The translations under genes and the position numbers were made by a program. A DNA stretch of 64,000 nucleotides from Rhodospirillaceae bacterium (GTDB lineage: Bacteria; Pseudomonadota; Alphaproteobacteria; Rhodospirillales; Rhodospirillaceae), in NCBI GenBank assembly GCA_009693785.1, contig SHWP01000003.1, positions 1-64,000 on the forward strand, in the 5' to 3' direction. Positions 23,218 through 29,519 of the stretch are shown here, one piece after another; position 1 is the stretch's first letter, and the number at the start of each line of letters is the position of its first letter. The notes under the pieces are model-generated. The model was not told where the DNA came from. It was given only the letters and a program-made list of their open reading frames with translations, and ran no database searches.

Positions 23218-23471
23218 GACCGAGCGCGGGCCTATTCCCGGCTGGGTTGAAAGTGCCAAAACCCCAGCCTGTTAATGCAGGAAAATAACAGGCGCATTTT
23301 TGTAACTTTATAATTAGATCAATGGGTTAATATAAAATTTTAGATTGATTTTAATATATCAAATAAGATCAAGGCTTTAGATCAACAATCCCCGCGCTCC
23401 ACACACTCCACACAACTCACACACCTTGCAAAAACGGCGGATCTTGATGCGCGCCATCGCATGCTTGGCCC
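23218..23471. other. AT-rich intergenic region with repeated AGATCAA motifs
   Basis: About 254 bases with no gene, between the broken TPR gene and the convergent acs gene. The part 23280-23395 is markedly AT-rich compared with its surroundings. It contains three copies of AGATCAA at 23316-23322, 23366-23372 and 23379-23385. It is followed by a CA-rich low-complexity run (about 23398-23425). No hairpin terminator with a T tract was found. Confidence 0.5.
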
Positions 23472-25412
23472 CTACCTCGACGCGCGGTTCCTGACCAAAT
23501 CCTCCACCACGCTTGGGTCAGCGAGCGTGCTGGTGTCGCCCAAGTTGCCCACGTCGTTCTCGGCGATTTTGCGAAGAATGCGCCGCATGATTTTTCCCGA
23601 GCGGGTTTTGGGCAGGCCTGGCGCCCATTGCAGCACATCGGGCTTGGCGATGGCGCTGATGTCCTTGGCGACCCAATTCACCAATTCTGATTTCAAAGCA
23701 TCGCTGGGCTCGACGCCGACTTTCAAGGTCACATAGGCATAGATGCCCTGGCCCTTGAGATCATGCGGATAGCCCACCACGGCCGCCTCGGCCACCGCCG
23801 TATGCCCCACCAATGAGCTTTCGACTTCGGCTGTGCCCAGCCTATGGCCCGACACGTTGATCACGTCATCCACACGCCCCGTGATCCAGTAGTAACCATC
23901 TTCGTCGCGCCGACAGCCATCGCCGGTAAAATATTTTCCGGGATAGGTTTTGAAATAGGTGTCAACGAAGCGCTGATGATCGCCATAAACGGTGCGCATT
24001 TGGCCGGGCCAGGAATCGGTGAGACACAGGTTGCCGGTGCAGGCCCCCTCCAACTCCTTGCCCTCGTTGTCCACGATGCAGGGCTTGATGCCGAAAAACG
24101 GCAGGGTCGCCGAGCCGGGCTTGAGCTTGGTGGCACCGGGCAATGGAGAAATTAAAATCCCGCCGGTTTCGGTTTGCCACCAGGTATCGACAATTGGGCA
24201 GCGCCCATCACCGACCACGCGGTGATACCACAACCAGGCTTCGGGGTTGATGGGCTCGCCCACGCTGCCCAGCAGCCGCAAGGTCGCGCGCGAGGTGCGC
24301 TTCACCGGGCCATCGCCATCGCGCATCAGCGCGCGAATGGCCGTGGGCGCGGTGTAAAAAATACTCACGCCATGCTTGTCGATGACGTTCCAGAAGCGCG
24401 ATGAGTCGGGATAGTTTGGCACGCCCTCGAACATCAGCGTGGTGGCGCCGTTACATAGCGGCCCATAGACGATGTAGCTGTGGCCCGTGACCCAGCCCAC
24501 ATCGGCCGTGCACCAGTACACATCGCCGTCTTTGTAATCGAAGACGTATTGATGCGTCATTGAGACGTACACCAAATACCCGCCAGTGGTATGCAACACG
24601 CCCTTGGGTTTTCCGGTGGAGCCCGAGGTGTAGAGAATGAACAACGGGTCTTCGGCGTTCATCTCGACCGCATCGCAAAACTTGTGCGCGTTGGCGGTCA
24701 TGAGGTGGTACCACACGTCGCGCGGCGATTTCATGGTCACCGCACCACCGGTGTGCTTGACCACGATCACGTGCTTGACCGAGGGCGCAGTTTTGAGCGC
24801 TTCGTCCACATTGGCCTTGAGCGGGATTTTTTTGCCGCCGCGCACGCCCTCATCGGCCGTGATCACCACGTTGGCTTTGCAGTCGTTGATACGGTCAGCC
24901 ACCGAATGAGGTGCAAATCCTCCGAACACCACCGAGTGCACCGCACCGATGCGCGCACAGGCCAGCATGGCCACGGCGGCCTCGACGATCATCGGCAAAT
25001 AAATGCAAACCCGGTCGCCTTTTTTCACGCCGAGAGATTTCAACACGTTGCCCAACCGGCAGGTCATCTCGTGCAGTTCGGCGTATGAGATATGCTTGGA
25101 TTGCTTGGGGTCGTCACCTTCCCAAATGATGGCGATTTGAGTGGCCTTTGTGGCCAAATGCCGATCGAGACAATTCATCGAGGCGTTGAGGGTGCCGTCG
25201 TGGTACCAGCGGATGCTGACATCGGGGGCCTGGAACGAGACTTTCTTGACCGAGCGATAAGGCACGAACCATTCCAGCCGCTTGCCGTGCTCGCGCCAGA
25301 ACCCCAGTTGATCTTTCACCGAGGTCTCGTACATCTCGCGGTAGGTGCGCTCGTTGACCAGGGCGGATTTGGCAAGCCCTGGCGGAACGTCGAAAATTTT
25401 ATTGTCGGACAT
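23472..25412 (-). CDS. acs: Acetate--CoA ligase (acetyl-CoA synthetase)
   Basis: The product is 646 residues, standard for Acs. It converts acetate, ATP and CoA into acetyl-CoA through acetyl-AMP in the cytoplasm. The adenylate-forming signature [12 protein letters not shown], the WWQTETGG motif, [16 protein letters not shown] and the C-terminal [11 protein letters not shown] with the acetylatable lysine are all present. The N-terminal region ([13 protein letters not shown]) is that of acetyl-CoA rather than propionyl-CoA synthetases. The gene appears complete. Upstream lies a hairpin and a palindromic repeat (25427-25524), then the Rieske gene on the same strand. Confidence 0.97.
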
Positions 25413-25426
25413 GGCTGTTCTCCCCT

Positions 25427-25466
25427 AGAGCGAGCCGCGTAATTTCGGAATCATACGGCTCGCTCT
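25427..25466 (-). repeat. Perfect 11-bp inverted repeat, possible terminator hairpin
   Basis: AGAGCGAGCCG (25427-25437) and CGGCTCGCTCT (25456-25466) form a perfect 11-bp stem with an 18-base loop. A run of six T follows at 25472-25477 on the plus strand. On the minus strand it lies 14 bases ahead of the acs start codon, where it could affect acs expression. Together with the next repeat it looks like one composite palindromic element. Confidence 0.6.
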
Positions 25467-25478
25467 ATCTCTTTTTTG

Positions 25479-25524
25479 GCGCATCGTGCCGAAAACCGGA
25501 AGCCCACTTTTCGGCACGATGCGC
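25479..25524. repeat. Intergenic palindromic repeat element (17-bp arms)
   Basis: GCGCATCGTGCCGAAAA (25479-25495) and its exact reverse complement TTTTCGGCACGATGCGC (25508-25524) flank a 12-base centre CCGGAAGCCCAC. The form CCGAAAACCGG...CCACTTTTCGG is that of dispersed palindromic repeats abundant in many alphaproteobacterial genomes, notably Rhizobiales. I see no second copy in this window. Confidence 0.7.
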
Positions 25525-25557
25525 TCACCCAACAATAAACTTAGCGCCTGAGCAGAG

Positions 25558-25911
25558 TCACGCCTGTGGCGGGTCGCCGGGCGGGGCGGCGATGATGTTT
25601 TGGCCCACAACACTGACTGGATAGGGCTTTAAGGCCTGGCCCTTGCAGGGCCCGCGCACGCATTGGCCGGTTTGAATATCAAAACGGGCCGAGTGGTTGG
25701 CACAGAAGAGATACTGCTTAGTCACATCGAAGAACTGATCGTCGCGCCAATTAAGCGGCAGCCGCGCGTGGGGGCAGGAATTGACATAGCCCAACACTTT
25801 GCCTTCGTGTTGCACCACGAACACCGAGATGCGCGCGCCATCCTCCGAGAGCACAACTTCCTTGGCCCCGGTGGCGGATAGATCGGCCAAGGCGCAGAGA
25901 ATGCCGCTCAT
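25558..25911 (-). CDS. Rieske [2Fe-2S] domain protein
   Basis: The product is 117 residues from the ATG at 25911. The Rieske ligands are CPH in NSCPHARLPL and CANH in YLFCANHSARFD, matching C-x-H and C-x2-H. The protein has no membrane segment and no other domain, so it is a soluble electron carrier of the ferredoxin-like Rieske type. Its start codon overlaps the stop of the MOSC gene (ATGA), implying coupled synthesis. I infer that it delivers electrons to the MOSC molybdenum enzyme; a role as partner of another oxidoreductase cannot be excluded. Confidence 0.88.
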   Translation of the reverse strand: MSGILCALADLSATGAKEVVLSEDGARISVFVVQHEGKVLGYVNSCPHARLPLNWRDDQFFDVTKQYLFCANHSARFDIQTGQCVRGPCKGQALKPYPVSVVGQNIIAAPPGDPPQA

Positions 25912-26672
25912 GATGCATCCAGGCAATCGCCCACGCGAACCTCGCCACCTGCCACCACCTCGCCATAGATGCCGCAATCCGTGTGGTCATAGTGCTGACG
26001 CAGCAGGGCTGGAATATCGAGATCGCGCGACGCGGTGATGGGGTTGACGGTGGTGGCCGCGCAGCGCCCGATGCGTTTGACGATTTTCAACTGCGCGCTG
26101 CCCATGGCGATTGTCTTGCCGACCCAACCGAATTCAGCCCAGGGCTCGGCGCCGTCGATGACGATGTTTCCGCGAAAGCGCGAGGCTGCCACTGGCTGGC
26201 CAGTTTTGCTTTCAAGATCGCGCAACGTAGCGAGATTGATGATGGAGATGTAGGCCGGTTGCACATCCGTCAGCCAGGTTGCTCCCGCATCGATGAGCCC
26301 AATCGCCCCACGCGGATCTTTGAGCAACGCATTGAACACGCTCTCGGCACCGGCCTTGCCTGCAGGGTTGAGAATGTTGCCAACAAAAAGCGTGTTGTCC
26401 GCATGGGTGATTTTTAAAATGCCGCTGTCGGGGTTGAGGGCGGTGTGCACCTTGGCCAATTCGGCGGTGTGCGCGAGCATCAGAAACTCGCTTTTGCGCT
26501 GCCAGCTTGGGTTGGCGGGGTCGAAGGCACTGGCGGCATGGCGCAGGGCGAATCGCCGGTCGCCGGGAAAAATGTATCCGGGGGCGAGGGCCACCTGGCG
26601 CAACGACTCGGCGCTCAGACCCTTGATCTGGTAGCGGAGTAGATCTTCTATTATGTACCCGGTACGTAACAT
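25908..26672 (-). CDS. MOSC domain protein, mARC/YcbX-like molybdenum cofactor enzyme
   Basis: The product is 254 residues. The N-terminal beta-barrel (MOSC_N, RYQIKGLSAESL) precedes the MOSC domain. GRCAATTVNPITASRDL matches the Cys-x2-TTVxP signature in which the cysteine ligates molybdenum in mARC and YcbX. FRGNIVIDGAEPWAEFGWVG is the preceding conserved block. Such enzymes reduce N-hydroxylated compounds. YcbX carries its own C-terminal ferredoxin domain; here that domain is absent and a separate Rieske gene follows with ATGA overlap. The start at 26672 has no Shine-Dalgarno sequence and lies in an AT-rich control region with two palindromes. Confidence 0.85.
   Translation of the reverse strand: MLRTGYIIEDLLRYQIKGLSAESLRQVALAPGYIFPGDRRFALRHAASAFDPANPSWQRKSEFLMLAHTAELAKVHTALNPDSGILKITHADNTLFVGNILNPAGKAGAESVFNALLKDPRGAIGLIDAGATWLTDVQPAYISIINLATLRDLESKTGQPVAASRFRGNIVIDGAEPWAEFGWVGKTIAMGSAQLKIVKRIGRCAATTVNPITASRDLDIPALLRQHYDHTDCGIYGEVVAGGEVRVGDCLDAS
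26651..26669. promoter_or_regulatory. Operator-like palindrome 1, at the MOSC gene start
   Basis: TTATGTACCCGGTACGTAA is a near-palindrome with 8-bp arms around CCG and one mismatch. It covers codons 2-8 of the MOSC gene, directly after the ATG. It is nearly identical to the palindrome at 26704-26722. Placement of two such sites around an AT-rich promoter suggests a dimeric repressor. No regulator gene is adjacent. Confidence 0.6.
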
Positions 26673-26703
26673 TATTTTTTAATATGTTGATTTATATAAA
26701 TAA

Positions 26704-26722
26704 TTATGTACCCTGTACATAA
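26704..26722. promoter_or_regulatory. Operator-like palindrome 2, upstream of the MOSC gene
   Basis: TTATGTACCCTGTACATAA is a perfect palindrome with 8-bp arms around CCT. It lies between the yciI stop codon and an AT-rich stretch (26673-26703) that contains a TATATAAAT-like sequence on the minus strand. Its centre is 53 bases from the centre of palindrome 1, close to five helical turns, so both could be bound on the same DNA face. Confidence 0.65.
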
Positions 26723-26725
26723 TAA

Positions 26726-27007
26726 TTAGGCGGGGAGGACTTTGCGGGTGGGCTGCACGATCACCCGCTCGAACAGTCCGGCTTTTTCGTAAGGATCTTG
26801 TTTTTGGAAGGCCCGAGCCGCCTCAAGCGACTCGAACTCGCAGATGTAGAGCGTGCCGATCATGGTGGTGGCGTCGTCGGCGAGAATCGGGCCCACAAAA
26901 AACAAATCGGGCTTGGTGATATTGAGCCATTCGATGTGCGAGGGCCGCGTTTTCATGCGCAGCTCCACATGGCCCGGCTTGTCGAGACAGATCATGGTGA
27001 TGAGCAT
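26726..27007 (-). CDS. yciI: YciI family protein (YCII-related domain)
   Basis: The product is 93 residues from the ATG at 27007 (MLITMICLDKPGHVELR). An ATG two codons earlier (27013) is also possible, but AAAGGA is better spaced from 27007. The YCII fold is seen from CLDKPGH, RPSHIEWL with the conserved His, and FESLEAARAFQKQDPYEKAGLF with the Asp. These ferredoxin-like small proteins are mostly uncharacterised; some relatives are dehydrochlorinases or lactone-forming enzymes. In alphaproteobacteria yciI commonly follows gpsA downstream of tsaD; here a propeller gene and manC separate it from gpsA. Confidence 0.9.
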   Translation of the reverse strand: MLITMICLDKPGHVELRMKTRPSHIEWLNITKPDLFFVGPILADDATTMIGTLYICEFESLEAARAFQKQDPYEKAGLFERVIVQPTRKVLPA

Positions 27008-27013
27008 TGGCAT

Positions 27014-27961
27014 TTATCCTTTGAACTGCGCCAAGCCCGCAATGCGTTTGGGCCCGACATTGATTTTAGCGCTGACCGCGCCGTCGTTCAGCGACACCTT
27101 GACCACATCGCCGGTGAACCAGTTGCCCGCGTAAGCCACATTAGAATCAAACGAGGCCGCGACAATGGCCCAGCCAAAGCCGGGCAGCGGTACCTTGGCG
27201 ATTTCGCTGCCGTCTTCGCCCAGTACTTCGAGGCGATTGCCCAAGGGCAACAACACGCGCGCGCCGCTGCACGCTACATCGAACACCATGGCGGGCGGCC
27301 CGCCTTGCGAGGGTGCGAGTACTTTCAAGTCGGGCAATTGTTTGCGCGCACTGAGGTCGTAACGCATCACGCGCAAGCCGGTTTCAGAAGTATAGATCAA
27401 TGTTTTGCCATCGCTGCCAAGCGCAGCATGGGTAATCGCCATACTGCCCGACACCCCGCCCGAGACTTCGGGGTAATGCACATGAACCGGTTTGCCTTCA
27501 GCCGTGAATTCGTAAAGCCCGCCCATGCCTACTTGATCAGGATGATCGGGTAAGTATTTGTAGCGCGTGCTCAAACCTTTGGGCTGTGCCGTACCCTTGA
27601 AATATTCGCTGAGCACATAATTACCATTGGGCAAAAACAGCACCTTGCCTACGGCGCGCTCGACCAAACGCGTGACATCTTTTTGTTTGCCCTCGCGCCC
27701 CACACGCACCACTTGCCAGGCCAGGTTATCGAAAGCCCACATGGTTTCATCAGGCGCGAATGTCAGCCCGCCCACCAAATGCGTTGTGCCCGTCACCCAC
27801 AGCACGCCTTTTTCGTTCAGGTCTGCGTCGTACTGAAGAATGCGGCCCGCGCCCGCATGATCGTCGTTGGGGTTGTTGAGCAGAGTGGCGCCCGCGAAAA
27901 CATCGCCCTTAACAAATGGCAACATGGTGGAAGCGGGTTGGTCTAAAGCCATGGCGGTCAT
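27014..27961 (-). CDS. Beta-propeller (SMP-30-like) protein, unknown function
   Basis: The product is 315 residues from the ATG at 27961, one base after the manC stop codon; the open frame continues upstream only through manC. Blade-like repeats are visible in GGLTFAPDETMWAFDN, VLFLPNGNYVLSEYF, ITHAALGSDGKTLIYTSE and FDSNVAYAGNWFTGDV. Unlike the propellers at 3.3-6.6 kb it has no signal peptide, so it is cytoplasmic as predicted here. The substrate is unknown. It sits tightly between manC and yciI on the same strand and is probably co-transcribed with them. Confidence 0.72.
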   Translation of the reverse strand: MTAMALDQPASTMLPFVKGDVFAGATLLNNPNDDHAGAGRILQYDADLNEKGVLWVTGTTHLVGGLTFAPDETMWAFDNLAWQVVRVGREGKQKDVTRLVERAVGKVLFLPNGNYVLSEYFKGTAQPKGLSTRYKYLPDHPDQVGMGGLYEFTAEGKPVHVHYPEVSGGVSGSMAITHAALGSDGKTLIYTSETGLRVMRYDLSARKQLPDLKVLAPSQGGPPAMVFDVACSGARVLLPLGNRLEVLGEDGSEIAKVPLPGFGWAIVAASFDSNVAYAGNWFTGDVVKVSLNDGAVSAKINVGPKRIAGLAQFKG

Positions 27962-27962
27962 C

Positions 27963-29519
27963 TCAGCGTCTGCGGGTAGAGCGGCGGCGCGCACTGCGGC
28001 GCTTGGCGGGCACCGCGCCAGCCTTGCGACGAATTTTGCGTTTGAGCTTGGGGGGTTTCTTTTTCGCTTTGGCTTTTGTGCCAGTGCCTTCAGGCGCACG
28101 GCCATAGGTATCTGCCAAACGCACAATGTCGTCCTCGCCCACGTAGGAGCCCGATTGCACTTCGATCATGTGCAATTCGTCCGTCCAGGGATTTGCCAAG
28201 CGGTGAACCGCGCCAGCGGGAATAAACGTGGACTCGTTCTCGCCCAATTGAAATTCTTCACCGTTGCACGTGACCCACGCCTTGCCCGTGACCACCACCC
28301 AATGCTCGGAGCGGTGCGCGTGTTTTTGCAACGACAACTGCCCGCCCGGTTTCACGCATAATCTTTTCACCTTGAAGCGCGGGCCCGCATCCATGGTTTG
28401 GAACCAGCCCCAGGGCCGGTCGGTGCGCGCGGCATTGGTGGCCTCGACGCGGTTTTGTTTTTTCAAGACCTCGACGATGGCCTTGACCTGCTGGTCATGG
28501 GACTTGTCGGCCACCAGCACCGCATCGGGTGTGACAATCACTGCAAGATTCTTCACGCCTAGCACGGCGGTGAGTTGCTTATCGCTGCGCACATAGGAGT
28601 CGGTGGATTCAAACACCAGCACATCGCCCACCAAAGCATTGCCATTGGCGTCGCGCTCAGCCTCGGCATGCAACGCCGACCATGAGCCCACATCAGACCA
28701 GCCCATATCGACGGGCACCACGGCAGCCTTTTCCGTGCGCTCCATCACGCCGTAATCGATGGATTGGCTGGGCACCTTGGCGAATGCGTCGGGATCAAGG
28801 CGGAAGAAAAACAAATCGTTTTTGCCCTTGTCGAGCGCTGCCTGGCAGCCGGGCCCAATCGCCGGTTCGAACTTTGCGAGTTCTTCCAAGTAGCGCTGGG
28901 CCGAGAACAGAAAAATTCCCGCGTTCCACGAAAAGGCGGGGTCTGTGATGTATTCAGCCGCCGTTTCTGCGTTGGGTTTTTCGACAAAGCGGGCAAGTGC
29001 GAACACGTCCATGCCCGGCAACGGCGCCCCGCGATTGAGATATCCATAAGCGGTCGAGGCGTGCGTGGGTTTGACGCCAAACGTGACTAAGTGCCCGGCG
29101 CGCGCGACAGGCAACGCGGCGCTGACAGCAGCACGAAAGGCCTGGGGTTTGCGGATGATGTGATCAGACGGCATCACCAGCATCAATGCCTCGGGTTCAT
29201 CAGCCAGCAGCAACGCCGCCACGGCGATGGCCGGGGCTGTGTTGCGGCCCACGGGTTCGATGACGATGGCTTTAGGTTCGACGCCCACCTTGCGCAATTG
29301 TTCGGCGACGATGAAACGCTGCGCCTCGTTGCATACCACGATGGGCGCTTCGGATTTTGGCGCATCGTTGCCCAAACGCAGCGCGGTTTCTTGCAGCAAT
29401 GTTTTATCGGTGACCAGGGCTTGGAGTTGTTTGGGAAAATCTTCGCGCGACAAGGGCCACAACCGCGAGCCTGCGCCGCCAGATAATATCACCGGGTAAA
29501 GCTTGGTCTTTTCAGCCAC
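27963..29519 (-). CDS. manC: Mannose-1-phosphate guanylyltransferase / mannose-6-phosphate isomerase (type II)
   Basis: The product is 518 residues. The N-terminal nucleotidyltransferase domain has VILSGGAGSRLWPLSRE and FPKQ; the C-terminal cupin-type isomerase domain has RPWGWFQTMDAG, LSLQKHAHRSEHWVVVTG and the closing VQSGSYVGEDDIVRLAD. It makes GDP-mannose for exopolysaccharide or LPS. Normal ManC ends near YGR. Here about 40 further residues follow (about 27966-28085), almost all Lys, Arg, Pro and Ala, ending in RRSARRRSTRRR. The tail is in frame and not a frameshift artefact as far as can be seen. It could bind polyanions. Downstream of gpsA by 45 bases. Confidence 0.94.
   Translation of the reverse strand: MAEKTKLYPVILSGGAGSRLWPLSREDFPKQLQALVTDKTLLQETALRLGNDAPKSEAPIVVCNEAQRFIVAEQLRKVGVEPKAIVIEPVGRNTAPAIAVAALLLADEPEALMLVMPSDHIIRKPQAFRAAVSAALPVARAGHLVTFGVKPTHASTAYGYLNRGAPLPGMDVFALARFVEKPNAETAAEYITDPAFSWNAGIFLFSAQRYLEELAKFEPAIGPGCQAALDKGKNDLFFFRLDPDAFAKVPSQSIDYGVMERTEKAAVVPVDMGWSDVGSWSALHAEAERDANGNALVGDVLVFESTDSYVRSDKQLTAVLGVKNLAVIVTPDAVLVADKSHDQQVKAIVEVLKKQNRVEATNAARTDRPWGWFQTMDAGPRFKVKRLCVKPGGQLSLQKHAHRSEHWVVVTGKAWVTCNGEEFQLGENESTFIPAGAVHRLANPWTDELHMIEVQSGSYVGEDDIVRLADTYGRAPEGTGTKAKAKKKPPKLKRKIRRKAGAVPAKRRSARRRSTRRR

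Follow-up and report, generated by a model that had tools for sequence, protein, structure and literature searches.

Probable relocation of a carrier-less MOSC gene to a pre-existing Rieske gene row, with later entry of a transposase-linked palindromic repeat

Within a 64,000 nt stretch of DNA from a Rhodospirillaceae bacterium (here, the window; GenBank assembly GCA_009693785.1, contig SHWP01000003.1), a gene encoding a MOSC protein overlaps a gene encoding a small Rieske protein, raising the question of whether the two encode a reductase with its own electron donor or have become neighbours in some other way. Both genes are on the minus strand and share 4 nt, ATGA. Both ORFs were confirmed, and with them the initial sequence-only reading of a soluble Rieske gene directly downstream of the MOSC gene with an ATGA overlap. 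The genes and repeats of the locus are listed in Table 1; the conserved gene upstream of the YCII gene carries the provisional label SMP30.

Table 1. Genes and repeats at the MOSC-Rieske locus (positions in the window)
Feature	Coordinates	Strand	Basis or position
Acetyl-CoA synthetase-like gene (ACS), downstream of Rieske	23472..25412	-	Adjoins Rieske with or without MOSC
Soluble Rieske [2Fe-2S] protein, 117 aa	25558..25911 (from its ATG)	-	PF00355
MOSC_N-MOSC type protein (254 aa; Cys204 as putative Mo ligand)	25908..26672	-	PF03473, mARC1 fold
AT-rich stretch with both palindromes, filling the YCII-MOSC gap	26646..26725		Borders estimated
Palindrome 1, TTATGTACCCGGTACGTAA (read on +)	26651..26669		Covers MOSC codons 2-7 and first base of codon 8
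Palindrome 2, TTATGTACCCTGTACATAA (read on +)	26704..26722		3 nt past YCII stop codon
YCII-domain protein, upstream neighbour in same row	26726..27013	-	PF03795, 59.5 bits
Conserved gene upstream of YCII	27014..28126	-	No Pfam or NCBIfam match

A MOSC domain is present in the window protein (PF03473, 54.1 bits, Pfam cut-off 22.7), and MOSC_N scores 17.5 bits, below its Pfam cut-off of 25, with higher scores in relatives (27.3 bits in the congener L004, 36.2 in L008). The cysteine motif is RCAATTVNP, of which R203, Cys204, T207, V209 and P211 are invariant in all six genomes in which the gene pair is fully readable and T208 is variable (T, S or A). A profile built from eight relatives finds human mARC1 as best match in the PDB by sequence (E 3e-9), aligning the Cys204 region with mARC1 RCILTTVDP; based on this alignment and the invariance, Cys204 is the putative molybdenum ligand. 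Human mARC1 is also the best match of a structure model (Z 18.2-18.7, 223-225 residues, 19-21% identity; at best 18.7 over 223 residues), followed by YuaD and YiiM, with pyruvate kinase matches, at Z 8 and under, set aside as a common arrangement. The model, built from six sequences, is moderate (mean pLDDT 69), with residues 205-216 adjoining the cysteine at pLDDT <50, too low for reading the geometry of the active site. The cysteine motif and the fold match thus bear out the initial description of a MOSC protein with a mARC/YcbX-type motif. The same is true of the reported absence of a C-terminal ferredoxin domain, as the window protein has no Pfam match to Fer2, the domain fused in YcbX, and the MOSC match extends to residue 249 of 254.

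Compared with known MOSC proteins, the window protein resembles YiiM in its MOSC domain (Z 11.1-13.1) but has a MOSC_N-like half, which is absent from YiiM. It is a bacterial protein of the MOSC_N-MOSC type, as is YcbX, but is without the C-terminal [2Fe-2S] ferredoxin domain of YcbX. It is most similar to mARC, by sequence and fold, sharing the MOSC-type fold and cysteine motif, but it is bacterial and has no predicted membrane anchor, and the partners of mARC are, according to the available part of PMC10637980, cytochrome b5 and its reductase. In the same part of that source, YiiM is an N-reductase, the MOSC proteins so far tested in vitro reduce N-oxygenated compounds, and mARC and YcbX are supplied with electrons by an external carrier or by a ferredoxin fused to the enzyme. 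The window MOSC is the sole MOSC-family match (E up to 0.001) in its 2.95-Mb, 86%-complete genome, which also has moeA (L030:8438-9883). Given the cysteine, the fold and moeA, the same N-reductase chemistry is likely for the window enzyme.

The Rieske protein matches PF00355 with 39.5 bits (Pfam cut-off 20.3) and has the two cysteines and two histidines of the ligand motif, as C46-P-H48-x21-C70-x2-H73, together with C84-x2-G-P-C89. The usual spacing in the Rieske motif is 15-17. A scan of named genomes, with a Rieske alignment as bait, returned 36 loci, from 33 of which proteins were recovered at 75% coverage, the remaining three being under 75%. CxxGPC and CxH-x21-CxxH (x22 in one) are present in all 33, which therefore form one family, whatever the neighbouring gene. 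Like Rieske-type ferredoxins, the window protein is small and soluble, with weak matches to HcaC models (24-28 bits) and to the carbazole dioxygenase ferredoxin structure 3gce (E 3e-5), but it differs from them in the x21 spacing and the CxxGPC pair. It falls below the cut-off of all six NCBIfam models matched, and there is no oxygenase gene among the scanned neighbours of the Rieske gene.

The Rieske gene directly follows the MOSC gene in five genomes of the window's own genus (g1) and in one genome (G063) of a second genus (g21). Gene order and the ATGA overlap are conserved in all six, the genomes with a fully readable locus; in the second g21 genome, G064, the contig ends inside the MOSC gene, with the Rieske side out of view. 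The pair MOSCs diverge down to 47% identity, and persistence of the arrangement despite this divergence could reflect selection for coupling. The five named pair loci share one gene order, ManC - unnamed conserved gene - YCII - MOSC - Rieske - ACS. The MOSCs of L033, L034, L040, L043 and L049 are identical to those of G008, G009, G007, G063 and G006, respectively, so these loci most likely represent the same genomes and were counted once.

Adjacency of the two genes is confined to this clade in the genomes surveyed. In a search of 73 genomes of the family, a MOSC match is present in 22 (E to 0.001) and this Rieske family in 46 (E to 1e-10). Across the order, MOSC and Rieske are adjacent in 6 of the 69 genomes listed with both, all of them g1 or g21, and the next-closest distance on the same contig, among the matches listed, is 215 kb. 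These order values are for the matches listed, which cover 152 of the 159 genomes with a MOSC match and 153 of the 239 with a Rieske match, with positions for 7 and 4 genomes taken from the family MOSC and Rieske searches, respectively. Of 385 genomes sampled from the class, 103 carry the MOSC, 121 the Rieske and 46 both, with adjacency only in the window's own genome and a next distance of 58.8 kb. The neighbourhood survey suggested with the initial reading therefore documents a pair kept in two genera (6 of 6 readable genomes) and, among the order matches listed and in the class sample, no recurrence in other lineages. The 46 co-occurrences in the class exceed the 32 expected (Fisher p 0.001, ignoring kinship), which argues mildly for a shared need and against the explanation favoured below.

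One explanation is that the Rieske protein of this clade donates electrons to the MOSC protein, replacing the fused ferredoxin of YcbX, so that the two form a dedicated N-reductase. Its best argument is the overlap and gene order in six of six readable genomes. The MOSC protein being without a carrier domain, the dependence of mARC and YcbX on electron carriers (PMC10637980, available part) and the co-occurrence excess are also in its favour. A literature search found no report of a MOSC-Rieske pair; in the parts available, PMC1779556, PMC2700814 and PMC5317091 treat the two separately.

The Rieske gene is, however, often present in the same row without a MOSC gene. In 13 of the 36 bait loci, the YCII gene ends about 3-43 nt before the Rieske gene, with no MOSC between and ACS following, and in only five is a MOSC gene beside the Rieske gene, most likely in genomes already counted. 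The YCII-Rieske gap is 458-897 nt in a further six and, in L054, the one of these six that was scanned, it contains an EVE-domain gene. In the remaining 12 loci, no YCII gene was found beside the Rieske gene. A wider alphaproteobacterial row, TsaD-GpsA-YCII-(gap)-Rieske, is apparent in L053, L054, L055, L056, L057 and L059. In a tree of ACS, ManC and GpsA (21 loci, 1483 columns, midpoint root), the six MOSC loci form one clade (100/99) among MOSC-free loci, with one state change. This is consistent with a single gain of the MOSC gene, as independent losses would require several events, and so, by parsimony and from this one tree, we infer that the MOSC gene was one later gain in the Rieske row. 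Five contigs titled Candidatus Marinimicrobia (L035, L036, L039, L042 and L060) group with Rhodospirillaceae-titled loci, both by gene order and in the tree, and these titles look wrong.

The initial proposal that the Rieske protein is the MOSC protein's own electron donor is not upheld by this history, with the Rieske gene apparently older in the row, more widespread and usually without a MOSC gene beside it. Given the 13 loci with the same row and no MOSC, the excess of Rieske over related MOSC in the family and the confinement of adjacency to one clade (order matches listed; class sample), a dedicated two-protein reductase is unlikely. It is similarly doubtful that a carrier-less MOSC, by moving into and overlapping the older Rieske row, recruited the Rieske protein as a new electron donor in the two genera of uncultured Alphaproteobacteria. 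At best, the MOSC-Rieske pair is a recruited partnership.

Elsewhere in the order, the MOSC gene is often found beside clpB. Within 1.5 kb flanks, clpB adjoins MOSC in 18 of the 35 non-pair loci of the MOSC tree, including all eight other MOSC loci of the window's own family (L008-L015) and 10 of 20 further loci of the order, and is not beside MOSC in the seven distant loci L017-L023. The MOSCs of the pair loci group as a single clade in this tree (100/100), set on a long branch with their nearest relatives not resolved. L016, a fragment, and L080 and L084, which are the same places as L010 and L009, were omitted, and less than a third of the row is filled in 3 of the 17 'other' rows. The single origin apparent in both the row tree and the MOSC tree would also be expected if the MOSC gene landed beside the Rieske gene by chance, with the overlap persisting only because it is hard to undo. 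The wide YCII-Rieske gap in six other loci, and the EVE-domain gene in L054 that identifies the gap as a site that takes unrelated genes, add to this, but the retention of the pair by two genera, even though divergence is strong, does not fit it readily. Such a neutral neighbourhood has somewhat less than an even chance of being correct, and it overlaps with relocation of an ordinary MOSC N-reductase into the older row, the explanation that we favour, which leaves coupling open.

The gap between the YCII and MOSC genes was initially read as a dedicated control region. It is filled by a stretch with 22.5% G+C, compared with 57.9% in the window, that contains two near-perfect 19 nt palindromes spaced 53 nt apart, with palindrome 1 straight after the start codon of the MOSC gene. 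An 80-nt G+C content as low as this is seen at one other place in the window, 23278-23391, where the neighbours are the acetyl-CoA synthetase gene and a TPR-like gene. Allowing up to 3 mismatches, the palindrome has 4 matches in the window, versus 0.02 expected from shuffles, and 14 sites on five contigs of the genome. A second pair with the same 53-nt spacing is present on contig C25, its spacer also AT-rich but, by eye, unlike that of the window. On contig C6, three copies are beside or at the edge of a gene encoding a Y1 transposase (PF01797, Y1_Tnp, 51 bits, cut-off 23), which scores 70.8 bits with the NCBIfam RAYT model, below the cut-off of 80. The palindromes are thus repeated, mostly extragenic and linked to a Y1 (RAYT-like) transposase. 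Copies spaced 1.3-3 kb apart enclose either one gene or a pair of genes in L029 (G000:C6:28000-46000), L030 and L031, examples being a glyoxalase-like gene on C12 and an OprB porin gene on C25.

As in REP/RAYT systems, these palindromes are short, mostly extragenic, repeated and located beside a Y1 transposase gene, with a paired arrangement seen twice. The family differs in having only 14 copies and a transposase below the RAYT cut-off and, as GTAG directly adjoins only 1 of the 14, the palindromes are not GTAG-type REPs. They also resemble the inverted repeats around related, 'TIRYT' transposases, as described in the available part of PMC3733652.

In the congeners, no copy of the window palindrome was found (0 in 4 of 4, up to 2 mismatches) and the YCII stop and MOSC start codons are separated by 6-14 palindrome-free nt. 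The MOSC starts of the congeners align to the window protein at residues 4-5. The gap of the window measures 53 nt, with the start codon of MOSC and codons 2-7 inside the element. In G063, the same gap contains a different palindrome, TAGGGTACGACCCTA (L007:1461-1475; G063:C203:3773-3787), a pattern with 26 sites in G063 and none in G000 or G008. G063 has five transposase homologues, one of which is flanked by two of these sites; no such flanks are present at the other four or at the one homologue of G008. The presence of different transposase-linked palindromes in the same gap in two genera makes a preferred insertion site possible.

The idea that a transcription factor controls MOSC and other loci, with the two palindromes as its operators, was first raised by 11 forward pattern matches in the genome, and the near-perfect symmetry, the 14 sites and the two pairs with identical 53-nt spacing are in keeping with it. 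However, in addition to sites upstream of genes, copies are found at the 3' ends of genes and in the space between convergent ones (uncurated ORFs), a transposase gene adjoins, the same gap contains a different palindrome in the sister genus, and the four congeners retain the gene pair without the palindromes. Pairing extends two bases further in 5 of the 14 copies, and does so with two different sequences, which is hairpin-like. The idea was dropped on gene context and the congeners, and operators now seem very improbable. A scan of 25400-28300 found one sigma-70-like site (26700-26671, minus strand, inside the element) versus 1.7 expected, which is no evidence either way on a promoter, and 11 terminator-like sites versus 3.7 expected, none at the palindromes. 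The leader RNA fold has a z of -2.55, with 4 of 200 shuffles equally stable, and an RNA stem joining both palindromes is possible. A MOSC cassette between palindromes was also considered and rejected, as no palindrome copy was found on the Rieske side. With palindromes of a transposase-linked family at 14 sites and in none of four congeners, the supposed control region is, from sequence comparison, better explained as presumptively mobile DNA than as regulation.

Taken together, the locus is quite probably the result of an ordinary MOSC N-reductase gene having been relocated into an older Rieske row, with later entry of a repeat in the adjoining gap. In a single event in the common ancestor of the related genera g1 and g21, a mARC/YcbX-type MOSC without its own carrier domain would have entered the short YCII-Rieske gap of the row ManC-YCII-Rieske-acetyl-CoA synthetase, which in part of the loci has an unnamed conserved gene between ManC and YCII. 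The MOSC gene would then have stayed in place, ATGA-overlapping the Rieske gene and, in the window species, a Y1-transposase-linked palindromic repeat would later have entered the YCII-MOSC gap, supplying the MOSC start codon. Most likely, the enzyme uses Cys204 to bind Moco and draws electrons from a soluble carrier to reduce N-hydroxylated compounds; the adjacent Rieske protein is one candidate for this carrier, probably with an older, separate role. As the Rieske gene was apparently in the row before MOSC, and is there without MOSC in relatives, its product should have another task.

For bacterial MOSC enzymes that have no ferredoxin fused to them, this locus provides one testable electron donor. 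Its history also warns that adjacency need not mean partnership, and that a transposase-linked palindrome can supply the start codon of a gene and mimic a control region.
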